Shown here piece by piece: positions 4,879 through 47,915 of a stretch of 64,000 nt of DNA. Numbering within the stretch: position 1 is the stretch's first letter; every line of letters starts with the position of its first letter. Both the position numbers and the translations under genes were made by a program. This DNA comes from Microbacterium sp. T32 (GTDB lineage: Bacteria > Actinomycetota > Actinomycetes > Actinomycetales > Microbacteriaceae). Under the pieces are notes generated by a model. That model did not search any database, was not told the DNA's origin, and was given only the letters and a program-made list of their open reading frames with translations. The stretch covers positions 1 to 64,000 of the forward strand of contig NZ_LQQP01000007.1 in the NCBI RefSeq assembly GCF_001619615.1, read 5' to 3'.

Positions 4879-4967
4879 TTGTGCGAGCCGATCGGTTTTG
4901 GCCCGGTCGCGGCGCCGCGGTGGGCTCGCACCAACCCACTTGTACATTTGCCTCCTCGGGCCGCAGG

Positions 4968-5390
4968 TCAAGGTTCACCTCTCCCGACGAGGTGGCTTCC
5001 ATCTTTGTAACTGCCGCCACGTGGGCGTAGCTGAACCCCTACCTTGATCAGCCGCTGCCGGACGTTGTTGTAGCTGGTGTCGAGACGGGTTGCGATGGCG
5101 GCGATCGGGTGGCCGTGCTCGTACAGCGTTCGTGCGACCTCGACCTGATTGTCCGTGAGTGGCTGGCGGCGCAGTGCCACCCCCTCGTCTCGGAGTAGTC
5201 GGAGGATGCCTGTCTTAGAGAGTCCGTAGGTGTCGCAGAGACTCGGTGTCGTCGCACCCGATTCGTACTCGGCGGCGATTTGCTTGACCAGGGTCGGTTC
5301 GAGACGCCGACGAAGCGATCGACTCACCTGCTCGACCAGTGCAGAGGTGGCGAAATTCGGCGTCAGATCAGCCAATTTCTGCAGTTCCAC
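4968..5390 (-). CDS. Helix-turn-helix protein, intact copy of a duplicated gene
   Basis: A 140-residue protein with two predicted HTH segments: residues about 35-70 (ATTPSLCDTYGLSKTGILRLL) and about 78-112 (LTDNQVEVARTLYEHGH, then the NNVRQRL helix). Such tandem HTH units resemble the DNA-binding parts of serine recombinases and transposases, but no catalytic domain is present. A second copy at 8250-8663 carries a stop codon, and the two lie in 465-bp direct repeats that flank the Rhs fragment. Its role is unknown. Association with mobility or with toxin-cassette exchange is inferred from position. Confidence 0.6.
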   Translation of the reverse strand: MELQKLADLTPNFATSALVEQVSRSLRRRLEPTLVKQIAAEYESGATTPSLCDTYGLSKTGILRLLRDEGVALRRQPLTDNQVEVARTLYEHGHPIAAIATRLDTSYNNVRQRLIKVGVQLRPRGGSYKDGSHLVGRGEP

Positions 5391-5477
5391 CAGGGGCGGC
5401 GGCAGCAGGACCGATTTATTCGAGTAGCGGTGTACCGGCTCTACTTCTGGGACGGGTTAGCTGTCTTACTCGAACAA
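5013..5477. repeat. Long direct repeat, left copy (helix-turn-helix gene and its upstream region)
   Basis: This segment is clearly homologous to 8263-8729 over its full length, including about 90 bp of non-coding DNA upstream of the HTH gene (shared TTTATTCGAGTAG and AGCTGTCTT blocks). The repeats are in the same orientation about 3.25 kb apart and enclose the orphan Rhs tip, the small membrane protein and the LRR-like gene. They have diverged visibly, so the duplication is not recent. Confidence 0.8.
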
Positions 5478-5633
5478 TTCCCATACCGTTGCACGGGTTT
5501 GGGCAGGGCCCCGCAGCTCGCCGAGTCCACCTGTGAATGGCCTTTTGGTCCGGCCGTGTGGCGCACTCCGGGATGGCTTGCTACAAGCTGGGCTCGCGCT
5601 GACGTGGAGCCGTCCGAGCCGCGTGGGGCGTGA
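5391..5633. other. Non-coding stretch between the HTH gene and the Rhs fragment
   Basis: About 240 bp. The first ~87 bp belong to the direct repeat. The rest shows no convincing gene. A TGA at 5631-5633 closes the Rhs reading frame immediately before its first possible start, so any longer rhs gene has been lost. Confidence 0.5.
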
Positions 5634-6443
5634 GTGCGACTTGATCTGCCTGCTGGTGAACCCGGAACACGTCACCTGTCTCGCTACGGGCGAAGGGCTG
5701 CGGTTTCTAAGTCGCGTCAGCCCCTCGCACCTGGGACCCTGGCCATCGGTACGGCCGACGCCGACGACTCAGGCTCGGTCAACGAGACGACCGGGTGGCA
5801 CGACTCCGCTCAGAAGCTCGCCGAAACAGCAGGAACGAGTCTTCTGATCGAAATGGGCGCGCGACTGTACGTACCCGCGCTCGGACGATTCCTGCAGGTG
5901 GACCCCGTCGAGGGCGGCGTCGACAACGACTATGTCTGGCCCACCGACCCCATCGGCCGGAACGACCTCAGCGGCCGTGCTTGGTGGGACGACGTGACCG
6001 CAGGCATTGGAAGCGCTATGGGCGTCGCTGCCAAGTGGGTCTGGGACAACAGGCTAATGCTGGCGCACACCGCTGTGGGTATTGCGGCAGGCGTGCTGAC
6101 CGTGGCGGCGACAGTCGCTGTCTGTGCTGGGACTGTCGCCGTAGGATGCGTGTTCGCCGCCGGAGCTGCATTCGGGCTCTTGACGAATGTGGTACCCCAC
6201 TTCGTCCTGGACCGCGCCATGGGCCACCGGACTACAGCAAGGGAAGCGATTAGCTATGTCGTGGCGGCGCCGATTCGCGGAGCAACTGGCGTGCCGTTGC
6301 GGGAGATCCAACGAAAGGCTCTGAGCGCTGCTATAGATGCGGTGAGGTCAGTCCTTGGGTCGCTTACCGGCGCCGTCAAGTCCGGCGCCAGCGCTGCGTA
6401 CCGCGCGGTACGATCTCTCAAAGGAGGGTGGCGTGCATTTTGA
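5634..6443 (+). CDS. Orphan Rhs C-terminal tip with a hydrophobic toxin-like domain
   Basis: The 269-residue frame opens at a GTG directly after an in-frame stop. Residues about 54-114 match the end of the Rhs core: [13 protein letters not shown] (74-86), then QVDPVEGG and [10 protein letters not shown], which in full proteins precedes a variable toxin. The remaining ~155 residues contain a long glycine/alanine-rich hydrophobic stretch (about 130-190) and an amphipathic basic end, suggesting a membrane-active toxin. The large YD-repeat barrel is absent, so this is a displaced tip rather than a working Rhs protein. The next gene, a small membrane protein, overlaps its stop. The start codon is uncertain and native translation is not assured. 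Confidence 0.65.
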
Positions 6444-6676
6444 GTGACGACTACAAGAAATTCTTCGCGGGTTTCTCCAGGAGACGCGCTCTGTTCTGGT
6501 ACTTCTGCCTAGGCGTGTCTTCGGTCCTACTCACGTTCTACTACTTGGCCGGCAATTACTATTGGATCTGGATCCTTTCGGTACCGCTCATTATGATCCT
6601 TGCAAACGGTGAGTTGATCCGGTTCATGCGCTCGAAGGCCGCCAAACGGGCAGGTGGTCTCGAAGGGCGAGACTGA
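6440..6676 (+). CDS. Small two-helix membrane protein, candidate immunity protein
   Basis: A protein of about 78 residues with two hydrophobic helices (around [21 protein letters not shown] and [16 protein letters not shown]) and a basic C-terminus. A strong Shine-Dalgarno AAGGAGG (6421-6427) sits 12 bases before a TTG at 6440 that overlaps the Rhs-tip stop codon. A GTG at 6428 is in frame but too close to that site, so TTG is preferred. Coupling to the toxin-like tip and the membrane location fit an immunity protein for a pore-forming toxin, which is inference. The gene is visibly less GC-rich than its neighbours, consistent with horizontal origin. Confidence 0.6.
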
Positions 6677-40242: not shown

Positions 40243-40851
40243 GTGATCGAGTGGATCCTGACCGAATGGATGCAGATCCTCGGGTTCGCGACGGGGGCCG
40301 CGTGCGTGCTCCTCGCCGCCCGACGAAATGTCTGGACCTACCCCATCGGCATCGCCAACAACGCCGTCTTCCTCGTCGTGTTCGTGCCGGCGGGACTGTA
40401 CGCGTCGGCGGGACTGCAGCTCGTCTACCTCGCGCTCGGCGTCCACGGCTGGATCCGGTGGACGCGCGGGGTCGAGCACGACCGCGACTACGTCGCCCGG
40501 ACGCCCCGGCGGGCCGTCCCGTGGCTGATCGTCGCGGGAGTCGTCGGGATGGCCGTCCTGACGTGGCTCCTGGCGACGTTCACCGACTCGCAGGTCGCGC
40601 TCGCCGACGCCGGCACGACGGCGGCGAGCCTGGTCGCGCAGTACATGCTGAACCGCAAGTGGATCGAGAACTGGGCGGTGTGGATCGCCGTCGACATCGC
40701 CTTCGTGGCCCTGTCGATCGCGACCGGACTGTGGATCATCGCCGCCCTCTACGCCCTGTTCGTCGTGCTGTGCATCGGCGGGTGGCGCGGCTGGCATCGC
40801 GTGCTGCGCGAGGGGACGGCGACCGCGGCGCCCGCGGATGCACGTGTCTGA
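40243..40851 (+). CDS. pnuC: Nicotinamide riboside/mononucleotide transporter PnuC
   Basis: A 202-residue membrane protein with about seven helices. It contains the PnuC features WTYPIGIANNAVFLVVF, the GWIRWTRG loop and QYMLNRKWIENWAVWIAVD. PnuC moves nicotinamide riboside by facilitated diffusion, driven by phosphorylation inside. The nadR-type gene overlaps its 3' end by 14 bases, making a salvage pair. Confidence 0.9.
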   Translation: MIEWILTEWMQILGFATGAACVLLAARRNVWTYPIGIANNAVFLVVFVPAGLYASAGLQLVYLALGVHGWIRWTRGVEHDRDYVARTPRRAVPWLIVAGVVGMAVLTWLLATFTDSQVALADAGTTAASLVAQYMLNRKWIENWAVWIAVDIAFVALSIATGLWIIAALYALFVVLCIGGWRGWHRVLREGTATAAPADARV

Positions 40852-41914
40852 GCGGCGGTTCCGCCACGGGGTGGTGGTGGGGAAGTTCTACCCACTGCAC
40901 GCCGGGCACGCTCACCTGATCCGCTCCGCCGTGCGGGCGTGCGAGCGTGTCACGGTCGAGGTCATCGCGGCATCCGTCGAATCCATTCCACTCGAACGAC
41001 GCGCCGCGTGGATCCGCGAGGGGCACCCGACCGTGCGCGTGGTCGATCTCGTCGACGACACCCCCGTCGATTTCGGTTCCGAGACCGCGTGGGACGCGCA
41101 CACCGCGACGATCCGCGGTCTTCTCGACGAACCCGTCGACGCGGTGTTCACCTCCGACGACTACGGCGCGGAACTCGCCCGGAGGCTTCATGCCGAGTGG
41201 GTGCAGATCGACCCGGGTCGGGTCGTGAACCCGGTGTCGGGCACCGCGATCCGTGGCGATCTCGCCGGTCACTGGTCGGAGCTGTCGCCCGCGACACGGG
41301 CGGACCTCGCCGCGCGCATCGTCGTGCTCGGCGCGGAGTCGACCGGCTCGACGACGCTGGCGGAGGCGCTCGCCGCCGAGCTCGGAACGCTGTGGGTGCC
41401 GGAGTACGGCCGCGAGATCAGCGTGACGCGCGAGGGCGGTCTCGACGCGCCGTGGCGGAGCGACGAGTTCGACCTCATCGTCGATCGGCAGATCGAGTGG
41501 GAGCGCGACGCGCTGCGGCGGGTGCCCGTCCCGGTGCTCGTGTGCGACACGGACGTGCTGGCCACGGCGCTGTGGCACGAGCGGTACGTGGGCACGGTCG
41601 CCGACCGCATCCACGCGCGCGCGGCCGTGCACCGCCCGGCCCTGTATGTGCTGACCGGTGACGAGATCCCCTTCGTGCAGGACGGCATGCGCGACGGTGA
41701 GCACATCCGCGCCGACATGCAGGAGCGCTTCCGCGCGGTGCTCGCGGCGCAGCCCGTGCCGTGGCTCGAGGTGCGCGGGTCGGTGGCGGAGAGGCTCGCC
41801 GCCGCGCTGCCCGAGGTGCGTGCGGCCGTCGCCCGGTGGACCGCGTTCGAGGCTCCCCTAGAGGGTCGGCCCCTGGCCGAGCAAGAGGCTCTGCGGCGCC
41901 GGGCCGCGGGTTAG
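40838..41914 (+). CDS. nadR: NadR-type NMN adenylyltransferase / ribosylnicotinamide kinase
   Basis: A 358-residue bifunctional protein. The N-terminal nucleotidyltransferase has GKFYPLHAGH (residues 15-24, catalytic His pair) and SGTAIRGD. The C-terminal P-loop kinase begins VVLGAESTGSTTLAEAL at about 162-178. The Walker A lysine is replaced (GAESTGSTT rather than GAESTGKTT), so kinase activity needs checking. No DNA-binding domain is present, unlike enterobacterial NadR. It overlaps pnuC. Confidence 0.85.
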   Translation: MHVSERRFRHGVVVGKFYPLHAGHAHLIRSAVRACERVTVEVIAASVESIPLERRAAWIREGHPTVRVVDLVDDTPVDFGSETAWDAHTATIRGLLDEPVDAVFTSDDYGAELARRLHAEWVQIDPGRVVNPVSGTAIRGDLAGHWSELSPATRADLAARIVVLGAESTGSTTLAEALAAELGTLWVPEYGREISVTREGGLDAPWRSDEFDLIVDRQIEWERDALRRVPVPVLVCDTDVLATALWHERYVGTVADRIHARAAVHRPALYVLTGDEIPFVQDGMRDGEHIRADMQERFRAVLAAQPVPWLEVRGSVAERLAAALPEVRAAVARWTAFEAPLEGRPLAEQEALRRRAAG

Positions 41915-41923
41915 GCTGGCGCG

Positions 41924-43495
41924 ATGTCGGACCGCTGGCACAAGCTCTCGGAAGCCCCCACCACGCCGCATCCGGAGGACGGGGTCGCCCCGCTCACCGC
42001 GGACGACCTGTTCCGGGCCGAGACCGACGACTCCGCGGTCCCTCTCGACGAGAAGCTGCGTCAGACGTACTACTGGATCGTCAACCGGGCCGTCATCTCG
42101 CCCTACTACGACGTCGAGTTCTCCTCCGGCCCGGCGCTGTCGTTCACACTGGGGGATGCCGGGGCCGAGCTGACGCTGCCGAGTGAGCCGTCGTACTCGT
42201 CGAACGTGCTGCTGCCGCTGCTGACCTTCGCCGTCGGCGGCAAGTGCCTCCTCATCGGCGGACCGGGACGCGGGAAGACCACCGTCGCCGTCCTCATGGG
42301 GGTGCTCGCGGGCTCGAGCCCCGACGAGGTGCGCCGCGGTGTGCAGCAGGGCCAGCCGCAGCTCACGATCAGCGACCTCGTCGGCATCCCGCTCCCGCGC
42401 GACCTCATGAGCGCCGAGCGGCTCTCGGACATCGGCATCGCGTGGCGCGAGTGGCTCACGCGGCCGGTGAAGATCGTCGACGAATACAACCGGATCCCGA
42501 CGAAGACGCAGTCGGCGCTGCTGACCATGGTCGCGGAGGGGTACGTCGAGAGCCACGACCAGATGCGCCGCACCGCACCCGCGAGCGGTGTCGAGAGCTG
42601 GTTCTTCACCGCGAACGACGACGCGGGCGGCGGCACGTTCCCCGTGATCCAGGCGCTGCGCGACCGCATGGACGTCACGGTGCCGGCCGCCGGCTTCAAC
42701 AGCCGCTTCTTCGACGAGCTGGTCGCCCGCGTGGAGGCGGGCGAGAAGCCCGAGGAGCACGTCCCGTCCGAGCTCGTGTTCGCGGCCGAGGAGCAGACCG
42801 CGATGCGCGCGGCGATCCGCGCGGTCCCCGTTCCTGCCGACGTACGGCGGCGCCTGGAGTTCTTCCTCAGCCACTTCGAGTTCGTGCAGGGCGGCGGTCG
42901 CCGGTTCGAGTACCGCACGAAGGACACCGTGACCACGGGCGGCGGCAGGGTCGCCGAGGCCATCGAGGCGAACTCCGGTGCCGACCTCATGAGCGACCCC
43001 GGCGCGCAGACGCTCAACGGTCTGTCGGTGCGGGCGCTGCAGACCCTCGTCGTCTATGCCAAGGCGATCGCGTGGTTCCGCGGCCGGGAAGCGGTGTCGG
43101 TCGCCGACGTCGCCGCCGTCCTGCCCTTCGTCCTGCGCGGGAAACTGCTGCCCAACCCGACGCACCCGCGCTTCGACGTGGGGGCCGAGCGCGAGTTGAG
43201 CACGGACGTGCTGAGCTGGCTCACCGACCTGTTCGCCGAGTCGTGCCGACAGTACGACGCGCTCGGGCGCGGGAAGGACGACCCGGTCGGGGCGCTCCTC
43301 GCGCAGGCGGATGCCGGACTCGACGGCGTGACCGCGCTCGAGGCGGGGCGTCGCATCACGGCCATCGAGTCGCTGCTGCGCACGATGGCGGGCACCGGCA
43401 AGCTGTACGGGCGCGACTTCGACGACCTCATGGCGCTGAAGTACCTGCACCAGCGCTACACCGCGTACGTCCGGTGGGTCGAGCGGCGGCCATGA
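41924..43495 (+). CDS. MoxR-type AAA ATPase
   Basis: A 523-residue AAA+ protein. The N-terminal 90 residues are specific to this group. Walker A is GGPGRGKTT (112-120), Walker B is KIVDEYNR (Asp186/Glu187), sensor 1 lies in WFFTANDD, and arginine-rich helices RMDVTVPA follow. The C-terminal lid is extended. MoxR ATPases act as chaperones with VWA-domain partners, and such a partner is encoded two genes downstream. The next gene overlaps its stop by 4 bases. Confidence 0.85.
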   Translation: MSDRWHKLSEAPTTPHPEDGVAPLTADDLFRAETDDSAVPLDEKLRQTYYWIVNRAVISPYYDVEFSSGPALSFTLGDAGAELTLPSEPSYSSNVLLPLLTFAVGGKCLLIGGPGRGKTTVAVLMGVLAGSSPDEVRRGVQQGQPQLTISDLVGIPLPRDLMSAERLSDIGIAWREWLTRPVKIVDEYNRIPTKTQSALLTMVAEGYVESHDQMRRTAPASGVESWFFTANDDAGGGTFPVIQALRDRMDVTVPAAGFNSRFFDELVARVEAGEKPEEHVPSELVFAAEEQTAMRAAIRAVPVPADVRRRLEFFLSHFEFVQGGGRRFEYRTKDTVTTGGGRVAEAIEANSGADLMSDPGAQTLNGLSVRALQTLVVYAKAIAWFRGREAVSVADVAAVLPFVLRGKLLPNPTHPRFDVGAERELSTDVLSWLTDLFAESCRQYDALGRGKDDPVGALLAQADAGLDGVTALEAGRRITAIESLLRTMAGTGKLYGRDFDDLMALKYLHQRYTAYVRWVERRP

Positions 43496-44142
43496 TCCGT
43501 CGGCCCGGACACCTCGCGGACCGCACGGTCCCGGTCGGATCACCGGAGCCCGTGGACGGCCTCGACCTCGGGCTCGCCGCCCGGAACGTCGCCGCCGCCG
43601 GGGGCTCCGCCGACCGGTTCCGCGCCGAGTTCGGCGCGGGGCAGGCGGCAGCCGGCTCGAGCGCCCTCGATCCGAAGCATCTCGCGGGCATCGCCGGGTG
43701 GCGCGCGGGGGTCCTGGGCCTGCGCGAGGACGCGCTGTCGCGGATCGCCGCGGCGATGCCCGCGGCCGCGGACGCGATCGCCGCCACCCTCGGGATGGAT
43801 GCCACGGACGTGGAGCCCTTCCTCGAGCATCAGCGCACCGACCGGTTCTGGTGGCCGGGCCGCGCCGAGCAGCGCGGGTACGTCTGCGCGGTGGGCGGCT
43901 TCGCGGGTCTCGGTGGAGCCTGGACGCAGCCCCCGACGGACGGCCGTCCCCTCGGCCCGGCCGGTGCCTTCGCGGTGCGCACGGGCGAGCGGTGGTGGCG
44001 GATCGACGCCGACGTGTGGGGGTCGCGGTTGACCCCGCTCCGCGCGGTCGACGAGCCCGAGGAGGGCCTCGGGGGACCGGCATCCCTCGTCACCTTCCCG
44101 GACTCCTACCTCGCCTGGATCCACGTGGCGGACGCGGCATGA
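43492..44142 (+). CDS. Unknown protein of the MoxR/VWA operon, first
   Basis: A 216-residue soluble protein coupled to the MoxR gene and to the VWA gene by ATGA overlaps. The N-terminal half is alanine-rich helical (FRAEFGAGQAAAG, WRAGVLGLREDALSRIAAAMPAAAD). The C-terminal half has aromatic strands (RFWWPGRAEQRGYVCAVGGF, RWWRIDADVWG). I recognise no family. Position suggests an adaptor between the ATPase and the metallopeptidase/VWA protein. Confidence 0.6.
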   Translation: MIRRPGHLADRTVPVGSPEPVDGLDLGLAARNVAAAGGSADRFRAEFGAGQAAAGSSALDPKHLAGIAGWRAGVLGLREDALSRIAAAMPAAADAIAATLGMDATDVEPFLEHQRTDRFWWPGRAEQRGYVCAVGGFAGLGGAWTQPPTDGRPLGPAGAFAVRTGERWWRIDADVWGSRLTPLRAVDEPEEGLGGPASLVTFPDSYLAWIHVADAA

Positions 44143-45935
44143 GCGCGATGACGTCGCTCGAGCGGGCCGCGTGGGAGTCCGCGCAGGAGCTGTGGGGCGT
44201 GCGTATGCACGACGCCGTCCTCGACCCCGGCGCGGGATCGGTGCAGGGGGCGCCGGCGTGGTTCAGCTTCCCGCCGTCGATCACCGTGGACCCCGACATG
44301 GTCACGGCCTTCGGCGGTGCCGACGAGTGGGAGAGCGTGTTCGCGCACGAGCTCGGCCACCACGTCCTCGCGCCGAGCACGCGCCTGGATGCGCTGAAGA
44401 TCCGTCATCAGCTCGCCCGGGCGCTGCACGCCGCGGGCGCGTACGCGATCCGCGATGCGGATCTGTCGCTGCTGTCGAACCTGTGGACCGATCTCCTCGT
44501 GAACTCCCGGGTCGCGGTCCTGCAGCGCCGTCGCGACGGACCCGGCGAGCCCGGGATCGTACGCCTGTCCCGCGCGCTGTATCGCGCGTCCCGCGACTCG
44601 CCGAGCCGGCTGTGGTGGGTCTACCTCCGCACGTACGAGCTGCTGTGGAACCTCGCCGCGGGCACGCTCTGCGATCCGCAGCCGCCGCCGCTGGCCGCGC
44701 CCCCCGCGCCCGAGCCCGAGATCCCGATCGAGCAGACCCCGGAGAGGCACCGCGAGGCCGAACGGAAGCTGCGCGAGCGGCGTCGCGACGCACAGCGGGT
44801 GGCCGACGAACTGGCGGCCGCGACCCTCACGCGCCCGGCCCTGGATGCCGACTCGCTCGCCGCGCTCGTGCGGACCTTCGCGGGGGATGCCGTGTCCGGG
44901 GCGCTGCGGTTCGGCGTCATCGTCGCGCCGTATCTCGTCGATCCCCGCGCCGACGACGAGATGACGGGCGTCCCGATCGCGTGCGCCGCCGACACCGCCC
45001 CGGCGTCCGCGGGGGAGCTGGGTCGCGTGTTCGCCGACCGGCGGCTGAAGGAGGCCCTGCCGTCGCGCCCGGGCGATGCCGGTGGTCCGAGCGATGGCCG
45101 CGGACAGACCCTCGGCATCTCGCGCACGCTCGAGCTGTACCGGGACGCGAATCCGGACGAGGTCCTGGCCGCGTGGTACCGCGCCGAGGCCAGCCGGTGG
45201 GTCCGTCCGTTCACGCAGCGGGCGCCGAAACCGACCGTCCCCGATCTCCCCGGCCCCCTCGAGACGTGGGAGGTCGGCGACGACCTCGCCGACGTCGACT
45301 GGCCCGCGAGCCTCCAGGCGGCGGGGGTGGTCGTGCCGGGCGTGACGACGCGGCGCCGCTCGTTCCTCGTCGACGACCCGCCACCGGTGCGCACGGGCCT
45401 CGCGGTCGACCTGTACATCGACAGCTCCGGATCGATGCCGTATCCGCGTTCGGGCTCACCGGCCGTGCTCGCGGGCACGATCCTCGCGCTGTCGGTGCTC
45501 CGCGGGGGAGGGCGTGTGCGGGTGACGAGCTTCTCCGGTCCCGGGCAGGTCGCCGGGGCCGAGGACTTCACCCGCGACCCCGCGCGCGTGGTCACCGAGC
45601 TGGCCTATTTCTACAGCGGCGGGACGACCTTCCCCCTCGACCTCCTGGAGCGCCGCTACGCGGGGCTGTCGACCCCGGATGCCGCCGACCGCCGCCACCT
45701 CGTCGTGCTCTCGGACGACGGGCTCACGTCTCTGTTCGGCGACGGCGATCCCGAGCGCGCCGACGTCGCGGCGCGCGTGCGCGGGACCCTCACGACGGCG
45801 ACGCTCGTCGTGCTCGACGGGCAGCACCGGGTCGCGGAGCTCGCCGACGCGGCCGGCTACGACGTGCTCTACATCGAACACATGGACGATGCCCCGGCCG
45901 TCTGCGCGCGACTGGCGGAGGTGCTGGGTGGCTGA
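44139..45935 (+). CDS. Putative metallopeptidase-VWA fusion protein
   Basis: A 598-residue protein with two recognisable parts. Residues about 40-180 hold an HExxH zinc motif (FAHELGHHVLAPS; His70, Glu71, His74) as in the putative metallopeptidase part of DUF2201-like proteins. Residues about 420-598 form a VWA-like domain with the MIDAS motif D428-S430-S432 (YIDSSGSM), a downstream GGTTFPL threonine and VVLSDDGLTSL. The middle is charged and helical. MoxR-VWA pairs remodel or insert cofactors into targets; the peptidase motif implies processing. No signal peptide. Confidence 0.75.
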   Translation: MSAMTSLERAAWESAQELWGVRMHDAVLDPGAGSVQGAPAWFSFPPSITVDPDMVTAFGGADEWESVFAHELGHHVLAPSTRLDALKIRHQLARALHAAGAYAIRDADLSLLSNLWTDLLVNSRVAVLQRRRDGPGEPGIVRLSRALYRASRDSPSRLWWVYLRTYELLWNLAAGTLCDPQPPPLAAPPAPEPEIPIEQTPERHREAERKLRERRRDAQRVADELAAATLTRPALDADSLAALVRTFAGDAVSGALRFGVIVAPYLVDPRADDEMTGVPIACAADTAPASAGELGRVFADRRLKEALPSRPGDAGGPSDGRGQTLGISRTLELYRDANPDEVLAAWYRAEASRWVRPFTQRAPKPTVPDLPGPLETWEVGDDLADVDWPASLQAAGVVVPGVTTRRRSFLVDDPPPVRTGLAVDLYIDSSGSMPYPRSGSPAVLAGTILALSVLRGGGRVRVTSFSGPGQVAGAEDFTRDPARVVTELAYFYSGGTTFPLDLLERRYAGLSTPDAADRRHLVVLSDDGLTSLFGDGDPERADVAARVRGTLTTATLVVLDGQHRVAELADAAGYDVLYIEHMDDAPAVCARLAEVLGG

Positions 45936-46536
45936 GTCGGACGACCTGCTGCGGGCCTGGGCGGCGCTCGCCCCGACCGAGGACGCCGCGTGGGCGGCCG
46001 CGCGCCCCGGCCCGTCGGTCGACGAGATCGGCGCCCGGCTGTCGAGCGTGCCGCGGCCGTTCCTCGACGAGGGCGTGTCGATCGCCGCGCTCGCGGGAGA
46101 CATCGCCGGGCGCGCTCCGGCCGCGGTCGCCCACGCCGAGGATCCGCGCGTGCGTCTCGCCGCGGCCATCGGGCTGTGGGTGCTCGCGAGCGAGGACCTC
46201 GTCGCCCCGTTCGACCCGCCCCTGTCCACGGGCATCGCCCTCCGTGCCGTCGATGCGCTCGCCCTTCGCCTCGCCGCGGTCACCGACCCGCTCGACTGGC
46301 TCTCGGACGCCGAACGTCGCGAGGAAGCGGCCCGCACCTTCCTCCTCTGGGCGGGGTTCCTCCCCGCCGGGGAGGACGCCGACACCGCGCGCGCCCTCCT
46401 CGACGCGCGTGACTCCCTCCGCCGGAGCGCCGCGCTCGCCGAGGCGTACGCCGCCCACCGGCACCGCGAGGAGATCGCGCGCCGTCTCGCCGAGGCGCGG
46501 TCGCGCGAGGCGTCGGCGAGGTACTCCAGTGAGTGA
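45928..46536 (+). CDS. Unknown helical protein of the MoxR/VWA operon, second
   Basis: A 202-residue, alanine/arginine-rich, predicted all-helical protein from a GTG at 45928. It overlaps the preceding gene by 8 bases and the following by 8. The C-terminal 40 residues look like a coiled coil (HREEIARRLAEARSREA). No family recognised. Conserved coupling argues for a structural role with its neighbours. Confidence 0.55.
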   Translation: MAESDDLLRAWAALAPTEDAAWAAARPGPSVDEIGARLSSVPRPFLDEGVSIAALAGDIAGRAPAAVAHAEDPRVRLAAAIGLWVLASEDLVAPFDPPLSTGIALRAVDALALRLAAVTDPLDWLSDAERREEAARTFLLWAGFLPAGEDADTARALLDARDSLRRSAALAEAYAAHRHREEIARRLAEARSREASARYSSE

Positions 46537-47878
46537 CCCGGACGACCCGCTCGCGCTCGGCGAGTACGCACCCGGGTCGTCGGCGGTCCTCACCGACGCG
46601 GAACGCTGGCCGACCCTGGATGCCGACGGCGCACGGCGTCTCGAGCGGTGGCGTACGCACCCCGCCGCCCCGCGGTGGGTCCACGCGACGGGCGACCGGC
46701 TCGACGCCGCCGCCGTGGCCCGCACGCGCGACCCGCTCCCGCTCGACGGCTGGCTCGAGGCGCACCTCGACATCGCGCGTCGACTGCCGTTCTACCGCGG
46801 CCGGGGGAGGCTGGCATCCCTGTCCGACTTCCCGACCGTCTCGCGCGCCGATCTCGTCGCCGATGTCTCGGCCTTCGTGCCTCTGGATGCCGACCTGGAT
46901 CGGATGCTGCACGGCACGAGCTCGGGGTCGACCGGGGCGGCACTGGTGATCCCGGACGATGTCGAGGAGGTCGCGCGGGGCTTTCATCTGCTGGTCCGGC
47001 TCGCGCGCGAGGCCGGGGCCGACTGGCATCCGGACGGCGAACGGCTCGCGCTCCTGTGGGTCCTGCAGCAGCGGCAGGCGTTCACATACGTCTCGATCGT
47101 GAGCGGCTTCGCGCAGCGCGCGATGGCCCGCGTGAACCTGGATGCCGGGGCGTGGCGGGAGGCGTCCCACCGGCGGAGGTTCCTGCGCGACGCCGATCCG
47201 CAGGTGATCACGGGGAATCCGACGAGCCTCGCCGAGCTGCTCGACGGCGACCTGCGGGATGTCGTCCGGCCGCTCGCGCTCTTCTCCGGCGCGATGGAGC
47301 TGTCGGCTCCCCTCCGCGCCGCGCTGGAGGCCGCGTTCGCGTGCCCGGTGATCGACGTGTACGGCCTGCACGAGACGCGTCCGATCGCCGCGCGCACCGA
47401 CGACGGTCCCTTCCGCGTGCTCGATCGGCGCGTCCTCGTCGAGGTGCTCGACCCCTCCGGGCGGCCGGTGCCGGAGGGGGAGCGCGGCGAGATCACCGTC
47501 ACCGCGGGCGAGAACCCGCTGCTTCCTCTCGTCCGTTACCGGACCGGCGACGTCGGGCGCCTCGTCACGCTGCCGGACGGCGGGGTCGGGATCGCCGACC
47601 TCGAGGGGCGCGAGCACGTCGACTTCGTCACGGCGGCCGGCACGCGCGTGCCCTCGGTCGACCTGACGCAGCAGCTGCAGAGCCACGGGGCCCTCGGCTG
47701 GACGGTCGAACAGCGCGCGGACGGGAGCGTCGCGGTGCGCATCGCGGGAGGGGATGCCGAGGCGATCGCCCGTGCGCTCACGGCGACGCTCGGTCAGCCC
47801 CTGGAGATCGAGCGCGTCGAGCGTCTCGTCGAGCTGGGGGAGGGGAAGCCGCGCCGCTTCCGGTCCGCGGCGTCCTGA
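46529..47878 (+). CDS. PaaK-like adenylate-forming enzyme
   Basis: A 449-residue ANL-superfamily protein from a GTG at 46529. It has the P-loop-like TSSGSTG near residue 131, YGLHETRPIA around 279, the ribose-binding LVRYRTGD and a C-terminal GEGKPRRF with the likely catalytic lysine. The nearest groups are phenylacetate-CoA ligase/coenzyme F390 synthetase. It activates a carboxylate as acyl-AMP, then to CoA or another acceptor. Its presence in a MoxR/VWA operon is unexpected. Confidence 0.75.
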   Translation: MSDPDDPLALGEYAPGSSAVLTDAERWPTLDADGARRLERWRTHPAAPRWVHATGDRLDAAAVARTRDPLPLDGWLEAHLDIARRLPFYRGRGRLASLSDFPTVSRADLVADVSAFVPLDADLDRMLHGTSSGSTGAALVIPDDVEEVARGFHLLVRLAREAGADWHPDGERLALLWVLQQRQAFTYVSIVSGFAQRAMARVNLDAGAWREASHRRRFLRDADPQVITGNPTSLAELLDGDLRDVVRPLALFSGAMELSAPLRAALEAAFACPVIDVYGLHETRPIAARTDDGPFRVLDRRVLVEVLDPSGRPVPEGERGEITVTAGENPLLPLVRYRTGDVGRLVTLPDGGVGIADLEGREHVDFVTAAGTRVPSVDLTQQLQSHGALGWTVEQRADGSVAVRIAGGDAEAIARALTATLGQPLEIERVERLVELGEGKPRRFRSAAS

Positions 47879-47887
47879 CGCGCACGA

Positions 47888-47915
47888 AGGGCCGGGGCGA
47901 CACGGCCCCGGCCCT
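47888..47915. terminator. Bidirectional terminator between the PaaK-like gene and malate synthase
   Basis: A perfect 11-bp GC-rich stem (47888-47898 with 47905-47915) with loop GACACG. It sits between the convergent stops at 47878 and 47926. There is no U-run, as is usual in actinobacterial terminators. Confidence 0.75.

Follow-up and report, generated by a model that had tools for sequence, protein, structure and literature searches.

Pairs of MoxR-type AAA+ ATPases and VWA-domain proteins are widespread, and few of them have known targets. The question raised by the locus described here, from Microbacterium sp. T32, is what such a pair does when it is locked, in several phyla, to three further proteins, two of which have no known family. 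The five open reading frames concerned, g1 to g5, occupy positions 41924-47878 on the forward strand of a 64,000-nucleotide stretch of this genome (contig NZ_LQQP01000007.1, positions 1 to 64,000; hereafter, the window). A first-pass annotation could not match this combination of genes to a described pathway and, likewise, a search of libraries and open-access papers yielded no description of the operon. The function of this MoxR-VWA machine is narrowed here toward the physiology of nicotinamide riboside (NR) and nicotinamide adenine dinucleotide (NAD). A genomic partner pathway consisting of NR uptake and NAD synthesis gives this orphan machine a first testable purpose, namely what is done to, or with, NAD.

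The five genes and their coordinates stand as first annotated, and the junctions, which had been described as overlapping by 4 or 8 bases, read 4, 4, 8 and 8 bases in order along the operon. The run itself is longer, comprising seven genes, since pnuC and nadR join g1 from upstream through an overlap of 8 bases with each other and a gap of 9 bases between the nadR stop and g1 (Table 1). The nadR start is a GTG, with an ATG 6 bases earlier. The first-pass annotation omits the link to these two genes, which changes the question to be asked of the locus.

Conservation of the neighbourhood had been proposed as a check, and the five-gene order proved to be kept across phyla rather than confined to this strain. 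When GTDB genomes were pattern-scanned using the g1 alignment, 421 relatives came up, and locus counts were made on the best 80. All five genes are complete, ordered and on one strand in 66 of these 80 loci, 62 of which have every gap at 70 bases or less. Contig ends truncate eight of the remaining 14 (L056, L062, L086, L092, L099, L101, L117 and L119); the g2 motif is plain in the gap of L093 and L115, as also of L099 and L101, although the model for g2 did not detect the gene; and L094 has a gap of g2-like size whose longest printed frame lacks the g2 motif. The real exceptions are L070, which is rearranged and partly duplicated, L107, in which g4 and g5 are divergent, and L114, with no g4 or g5 in the locus. 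In L070 (5932-14374; Mycolicibacterium houstonense) an extra g3 copy is found 5' of g1, and repeated g4 and g5 stretches lie behind a cut-down g3.

Ratios of nonsynonymous to synonymous substitution (dN/dS) between the window and three relatives range from 0.13 to 0.53 (15 gene comparisons), and pairwise protein distances of the five genes correlate with each other (Spearman 0.83-0.93); L027-L029 and six loci that are truncated or rearranged were excluded from both analyses. Given the 66 complete loci out of 80, these dN/dS values and the correlated distances, the arrangement is not due to chance. The five genes form one unit, as had been claimed, and their substitution patterns indicate that they are under purifying selection. 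Record titles of the loci include Microbacteriaceae, Mycolicibacterium, Nocardioides, Cellulomonas and genera of Pseudonocardiales, together with planctomycetes, Limisphaerales, Verrucomicrobiaceae, Gemmatimonas, Desulfosudis, Obscuribacterales and Myxococcales, most of the latter group being metagenome-assembled genomes (MAGs). We take these loci to span Actinomycetota, Planctomycetota, Verrucomicrobiota, Gemmatimonadota, Desulfobacterota, Myxococcota and Obscuribacterales.

In order to describe the surroundings of the operon, 912 flanking genes from the 80 loci and seven further loci were clustered. PnuC (21 genus-level labels) and NadR (20) are the most widespread flanking families, followed by an ABC ATPase that occurs at scattered distances in 14 labels; all others occur in 6 or fewer. 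Both PnuC and NadR are found in 48 of the 80 loci, and they occur together in 47. In most linked loci nadR ends within 25 bases of g1. Three arrangements of the linkage were recognized: upstream on the same strand, upstream and divergent (L109, and L118 with pnuC only), and downstream (L175, with pnuC only). In this last locus, from a planctomycete, pnuC begins at the base right after the g5 stop, and the opposite strand carries a NAD synthase gene about 1.2 kb farther on. On the g1 tree, linkage to the operon changes at least six times, the linked state including L104, where the distance is 3.4 kb, and loci with one of the two genes only; the tree omits L027-L029 together with 22 rows that are near-identical, truncated or repeated, and three short contigs were given no state. 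A further NAD-related neighbourhood occurs in L108 (3474-8970), where genes for NrtR, microbial PARG, a fusion of a cyclic-phosphate receiver to an ADP-ribosylglycohydrolase, KptA and two more ADP-ribosylglycohydrolases run collinear into the operon, with pnuC-nadR about 14 kb downstream of it.

The association is also observed at the level of whole genomes. NadR is encoded by 17 of 19 operon genomes, a set hand-picked for diversity with half of its members outside the background class. Among the 16 with neither pnuC nor nadR seen adjacent, 14 carry NadR, versus 23 of 295 other genomes of the class (Fisher test, 9e-13; here and below the tests ignore shared ancestry). A family sample of 120 genomes contained four with g3 and eight with NadR, all four of the former carrying both (8.5e-6). 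In 199 genomes of Planctomycetota, NadR was found in 15 and a strong g3 match in five, four of which had both (1e-4), while NadR is present in 5 of 8 once three intermediate g3 matches are added. The PnuC family occurs in 18 of 23 operon genomes versus 6 of 35 others (6e-6), the latter being a non-random set made up of the first genomes listed by prior searches plus G106, G134 and G175. The family used, PF04973, may include other vitamin transporters. As a control, PF13203 shows no enrichment (1 of 23 operon genomes versus 7 of 80 in the phylum background).

To the manner of sampling and the shared ancestry just mentioned, several observations must be added that weigh against a strict coupling of the operon to NAD salvage. 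Loci of Agreia, Schumannella, Mycolicibacterium and Pseudonocardiales, and most of those from outside the actinobacteria, have no nadR beside the operon, and the pnuC-nadR pair lies 3.4-4.5 kb from it in Oerskovia (L104 and L106); L092 and L119 have too little upstream sequence for adjacency to be judged. No NadR match was found in the operon genomes G522, G523 and G931, possibly owing to incomplete assemblies, the NadR match of G518 covers the kinase half only, and NadR is found without a g3 match in 23 other members of the class. The core itself is looser in the wider Planctomycetota sample, from which four strong g3 loci were fetched wide: L174 lacks g5 in the stretch fetched and has extra genes between g2 and g3, and L176 lacks g4 and g5 in the stretch fetched. 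The other two are L175, with all five genes and an insertion 5' of g5, and L173, with g2-g5 in a stretch that begins at a contig end.

Observations of this kind would be expected if pnuC and nadR were mere passengers, their co-occurrence with the operon reflecting genome size or lifestyle and the five genes being unrelated to NAD. Many loci have the five genes without pnuC-nadR, NadR is present in genomes without the operon, and the set of 35 genomes without the operon used for PnuC includes small ones of 0.9-1.6 Mb. However, the co-occurrence persists when the genes are unlinked, in two separately sampled phyla and alongside three linkage arrangements, and the control family behaves as the background does, which makes this explanation rather improbable. 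A functional tie of the operon to NR/NAD salvage is, on the other hand, very probable.

The NadR protein of the window belongs to its family by PF13521, which is over its cut-off, and by CTP_transf_like, at 21.1 bits versus a cut-off of 21, and it keeps the GKFYPLHAGH motif. Its P-loop (41330-41353) has Ser in the place of Lys, and operon-linked actinobacterial copies have Ser or Thr there (GAESTG[ST]TT). The change was considered as an operon-specific trait and discarded: 15 of 16 NadR proteins from genomes without a g3 match also have Ser or Thr, the remaining one having Lys, so that the substitution characterizes the actinobacterial family as a whole. Either an altered kinase half or the use of another residue is possible. 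No homologue of g1-g5 was detected in 16 stretches around NadR from genomes without a g3 match. Finally, a scan for T-run terminators detected none at the hairpin that follows g5.

Table 1. Features of the seven-gene run and its 3' border in the window
Feature	Position	Strand	Remarks
pnuC, nicotinamide riboside/nicotinamide mononucleotide (NMN) transporter family	40243..40851	+	PF04973 E 2.9e-49
nadR, NMN adenylyltransferase and riboside-kinase-type domain	40844..41914	+	PF13521 E 1.7e-29; CTP_transf_like at cut-off
g1, MoxR-type AAA+ ATPase with conserved N-terminal extension	41924..43495	+	523 aa
g1 Walker A GGPGRGKT, residues 112-119	42257..42280	+	
g2, helical domain and beta domain with GGFxGxGG motif	43492..44142	+	216 aa; no known family
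g3, N-terminal HExGHH zincin-like region and C-terminal VWA domain	44139..45935	+	598 aa
g3 HExGHH motif, residues 70-75	44346..44363	+	Kept in 82/82 operon g3 rows
g3 metal ion-dependent adhesion site (MIDAS) DSSGS, residues 428-432	45420..45434	+	DxSxS
g4, protein of about 200 aa with conserved charged C-terminal tail	45928..46536	+	GTG start, 202 aa
g4 C-terminal tail, last nine residues	46507..46533	+	
g5, PaaK-like adenylate-forming (ANL) enzyme	46529..47878	+	GTG start, 449 aa
g5 SSGSTG nucleotide-binding loop	46919..46936	+	Gly133 77/77, Gly136 76/77
GC-rich hairpin 3' of g5, 5' of convergent gene	47888..47915	+	-35.7 kcal/mol, z -5.06

The first-pass annotation had assigned g1 to the MoxR ATPases, g3 to a fusion of an HExxH region (with Glu71 in the HExGHH motif) to a VWA domain and g5 to the adenylating enzymes, and all three assignments are borne out by Pfam, motifs and models. 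In Pfam, g1 reaches 36.6 bits with AAA_lid_2 (cut-off 22.7) and 26.5 bits with AAA_3, just under its cut-off of 27. Its Walker A and B, sensor and Arg residues (K118, T119, D186, E187, N231 and R248) are invariant in 85 of 85 rows; these and the following residue counts include the window, L005-L007 and L026 and leave out short rows. By its Walker motifs, sensor Asn, Arg and MoxR-type lid, the predicted product of g1 is a MoxR AAA+ ATPase.

The g3 model obtained with AlphaFold2 (AF2) has a predicted local distance difference test (pLDDT) score of 92.2, and its C-terminal part shows a VWA fold. The best Foldseek match of this part is the VWA domain of NorD (E 6.2e-6) and the best VIA-align match is MDN1-MIDAS (Z 15.2, root-mean-square deviation 4.0, 196 residues); both NorD and MDN1-MIDAS partner MoxR-clade AAA+ rings. 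MIDAS residues D428, S430, S432 and D526 are kept in 82 of 82 rows and T496 in 78 of 82. According to its modelled fold and its metal-site residues, the C-terminal part of g3 is a VWA domain with a MIDAS. In the N-terminal part, the HExxH motif of zincin metallopeptidases is present, marking g3 as a putative peptidase, and HExGHH, N114, D118 and N122 are invariant in the same 82 rows. Single-sequence Pfam searches with g3 gave sub-threshold matches only (M48, E 0.031), and 10 of 35 g3 members reach M48 at E<=0.1, the best at 2.5e-4.

A comparison with other MoxR and VWA pairs bears on this metal site. Pairs of the related families f22 and f28 were considered as members of the operon family and rejected: no g2, g4 or g5 was found near them, and HExxH is absent from the three rows examined. 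Since the relatives examined lack HExxH and show no g4 or g5 in their vicinity, the metal site seems to belong to the chemistry of the present system. In two other families of the phylum, a MoxR and VWA pair occurs (L027:7209-10356, L028:7803-11760, L029:7313-11239) in which the VWA protein keeps the g3 architecture but shows a YQLLHY-type sequence where HExxH has been lost; the pairs of L028 and L029 are adjoined by one more gene (281 aa) of similar sequence. Also, 3' of the Limisphaerales operon and on the other strand, L129 (G519:C59, 604-7380) has unscanned gene calls that resemble a second MoxR gene accompanied by VWA-like, SWIM-like and DUF5682-like neighbours.

Searches of Pfam, NCBIfam and PADLOC with the g2 and g4 proteins of the window yield no family at E<=1. 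Against PHROGs, g2 has no match at E<=0.1 and g4 one weak partial match (E 0.0061). The AF2 model of g2 is of high quality (pLDDT 94.3, predicted template modelling score 0.90); it has no Foldseek match in the PDB at E<=0.001, and a faint resemblance of its C-terminal half to WD40 blades scores Z 6.8 across 77 residues, below the trust level of the tool. A bpX-like beta-propeller is a candidate reading of g2 that neither the Foldseek search nor the WD40 score confirms. Pfam searches with 49 g2 members gave scattered matches only (best E 0.0071, in 2 members), and DUF4158 is reached by 3 of 23 g4 members (best E 8.4e-5) and not by the g4 of the window. Over 79 loci, the last residue of g4 is E in 58, V in 12, Y in 8 and D in 1. 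A reading of the g4 tail as a precursor, in the strict sense, of a cofactor or of a ribosomally synthesized and post-translationally modified peptide was dropped because these end residues vary and some members lack the Tyr close to the terminus.

As for g5, it matches the AMP-binding family PF00501 at 38.3 bits (cut-off 29.9) and NF045666 at E 1.4e-19, below the cut-off of the latter, and its profile finds PaaK structures (E 2.8e-22). Residues G133, E282, Y337, R338, T339, D341 and R361 are invariant in 77 of 77 rows, and the loop serines vary to Thr. By its AMP-binding domain and motifs, g5 is a predicted member of the ANL superfamily. Given that it falls in the PaaK-like part of that superfamily, it could be a catabolic aryl-CoA ligase with unrelated neighbours, the outcome that the first-pass annotation had named as adverse to its proposal. 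That possibility is highly improbable: g5 is not a PaaK equivalog, scoring 45 bits versus a cut-off of 646, it is co-inherited with the other four genes, and the commonest flanking families are PnuC and NadR.

The explanation favoured here, to which we give somewhat less than an even chance, is that the locus encodes a dedicated MoxR-VWA remodelling machine working with NAD derived from nicotinamide riboside. In the accepted view of MoxR rings and their VWA partners, a peptide is gripped at the MIDAS and remodelled with ATP (PMC7159879, PMC13036017). Judging from their families, PnuC would import NR and NadR would convert it to NMN and NAD. The g1 product would form an ATP-driven ring on which g3 docks, the VWA domain and its MIDAS gripping an acidic peptide and the HExGHH metal site holding or cutting it, thereby adding proteolysis or metal handling; g2 might serve as an adaptor or scaffold. 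The most likely internal ligand of g3 would be g4, by way of its conserved charged C-terminal tail (a candidate MIDAS ligand), and g5 may make the AMP ester of a carboxylate for ligation or transfer. As a result, some target in the NAD economy would be matured, modified or clipped at the expense of ATP. We infer the direction of cause in the NAD tie, as well as every protein contact and the chemistry, and the mechanism in this detail is doubtful.

Some features of the proteins count against this scheme. Rows of the structure search for g3 cover residues 334-598 only, so that a zincin fold was not confirmed in this way, and Pfam M48 stays below cut-off for the g3 of the window. The usual C-terminal Lys of ANL enzymes is at its column in 68 of 77 g5 rows, the others having Arg (4) or another residue or gap (5, among them L101, cut by a contig end, and L112, with a Lys one residue away); because of these nine rows, adenylation by g5 may not be universal.

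A broader proposal is that the operon represents a new class of NAD-coupled AAA+ machine, supplying pyridine nucleotide derived from NR to a MoxR-VWA-protease-ligase complex whose task is the modification or maturation of proteins; g5, for example, could activate the carboxylate of the g4 tail, with g3 gripping or cutting it. This is less likely still than the mechanism given above. If true, the class would constitute a conserved and so far undescribed physiological system of several bacterial phyla.

The distribution of the operon bears on a different explanation. Its g3 gene occurs in 4 of the 120 family-sample genomes, in 1 of 296 genomes of the class and, at any strength, in 10 of 199 Planctomycetota genomes (G905, G916 and G936 are intermediate relatives, counted apart, and G822 and G850 are weak). 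Nocardioides and Mycolicibacterium are nested inside Microbacteriaceae on the g1 tree, which suggests horizontal transfer. As a side observation, the genes around the operon are very similar in L097 and L098, titled Rhodococcus rhodnii NRRL B-16535 and Kibdelosporangium aridum, the first of which is perhaps mislabelled. No relative of g1 was found on plasmids (E<=1e-30), in phages (E<=1e-10) or, by pattern scan, on viral contigs.

Patchy occurrence and apparent movement between lineages resemble what is expected of a conflict module against phages or stress, which the first-pass annotation had suggested. In such a module the MoxR-VWA ring would set a threshold, the peptidase-like protein and the ligase would act on proteins of the invader or the host, and PnuC and NadR would refill the NAD that the response consumes. 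The looser core of some planctomycetes fits this idea, as does the interruption between g1 and g2 in a Planctomycetales MAG (L092:1723-2832) by a gene of 369 aa whose match to nucleoside deoxyribosyltransferase is sub-threshold (E 2.4e-4). MoxR-vWA conflict systems are described in PMC7159879, and the ADP-ribose removal genes beside the operon in L108 are like those predicted, in PMC9503650, to counter viral ADP-ribosylation. However, PADLOC matches are at chance level only (GajB, E 0.016 and 0.044, around the g1 P-loop), g1 relatives are absent from plasmids, phages and viral contigs at the limits used, and the 80 loci show a near-constant five-gene core under purifying selection and without a variable effector. 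Flanking genes, judged by eye and mostly unscanned, resemble housekeeping genes. We consider the conflict module unlikely.

About as improbable is that the operon matures a cofactor or metalloenzyme, the MoxR-VWA pair inserting the metal or cofactor and g5, joined in some lineages by a radical S-adenosylmethionine (SAM) enzyme, making or attaching the cofactor. The nearest Foldseek match of the VWA part is NorD, from the metal-insertion machine NorQD (PMC13036017). Pfam recognizes a radical SAM gene in L108, where it separates g3 from g4, and near the operon in L173 and L178; the motif at its start also opens unscanned gene calls of L103 (again between g3 and g4) and of L114. The operon relative in L178 (11626-17574) is a diverged one, and behind it come genes for radical SAM, Asn-synthase-like, glycosyltransferase and PIG-L proteins, as in a biosynthetic cluster. 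By eye, however, no radical SAM gene is found among flanking clusters common to at least four genus-level labels, and two L107 gene calls taken for radical SAM pieces have no Pfam match. The Glu of HExGHH, kept in 82 of 82 rows, suggests hydrolysis at this site, and NadR would be left unexplained. Separately, a radical SAM protein followed by a 569-aa protein without a Pfam family is encoded near the operon in the planctomycete L173 (7232-9999), and an L107 gene call (4930-6584), without a Pfam match, shares the stretch CVEELRPASRG with that of L173.

Compared with known systems, g5 shares with PaaK and with the DVU_1553-family AMP-dependent CoA ligase its membership of the ANL superfamily, but it differs in scoring 45 and 70 bits versus cut-offs of 646 and 300 and in a C-terminal Lys that is not universal. 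DUF2201 (PF13203) is similar to g3 in having a metallopeptidase-like N-terminus and a VWA-like C-terminus; g3 is not found by PF13203, and filing it there was rejected given that, despite the alike architecture and motif spacing, hhalign yields a probability of 11% with 25 VWA columns aligned (profile of five sequences). The MoxR-vWA ternary conflict systems also combine MoxR and vWA with further proteins and are patchy, and their four types are defined by VMAP, iSTAND, FtsH or a vWA-fused beta-propeller (PMC7159879). No Pfam family of VMAP, iSTAND, FtsH or propeller is hit by g2, g4 or g5, the profiles of those components not having been compared, and no propeller follows g3, since it ends with the VWA domain. 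The main text of PMC7159879 contains none of PaaK, CoA ligase, AMP-synthetase or DUF2201, and the passages and sections consulted make no mention of NadR or PnuC. In NorQ-NorD, a MoxR AAA+ protein and its VWA partner insert iron into nitric oxide reductase. The present operon likewise pairs a MoxR ring protein with a VWA-domain partner, but differs in the HExGHH region in front of the VWA domain of g3, in three more conserved genes and in its tie to NadR, the PnuC-NadR salvage pair being present upstream in the same run of genes.

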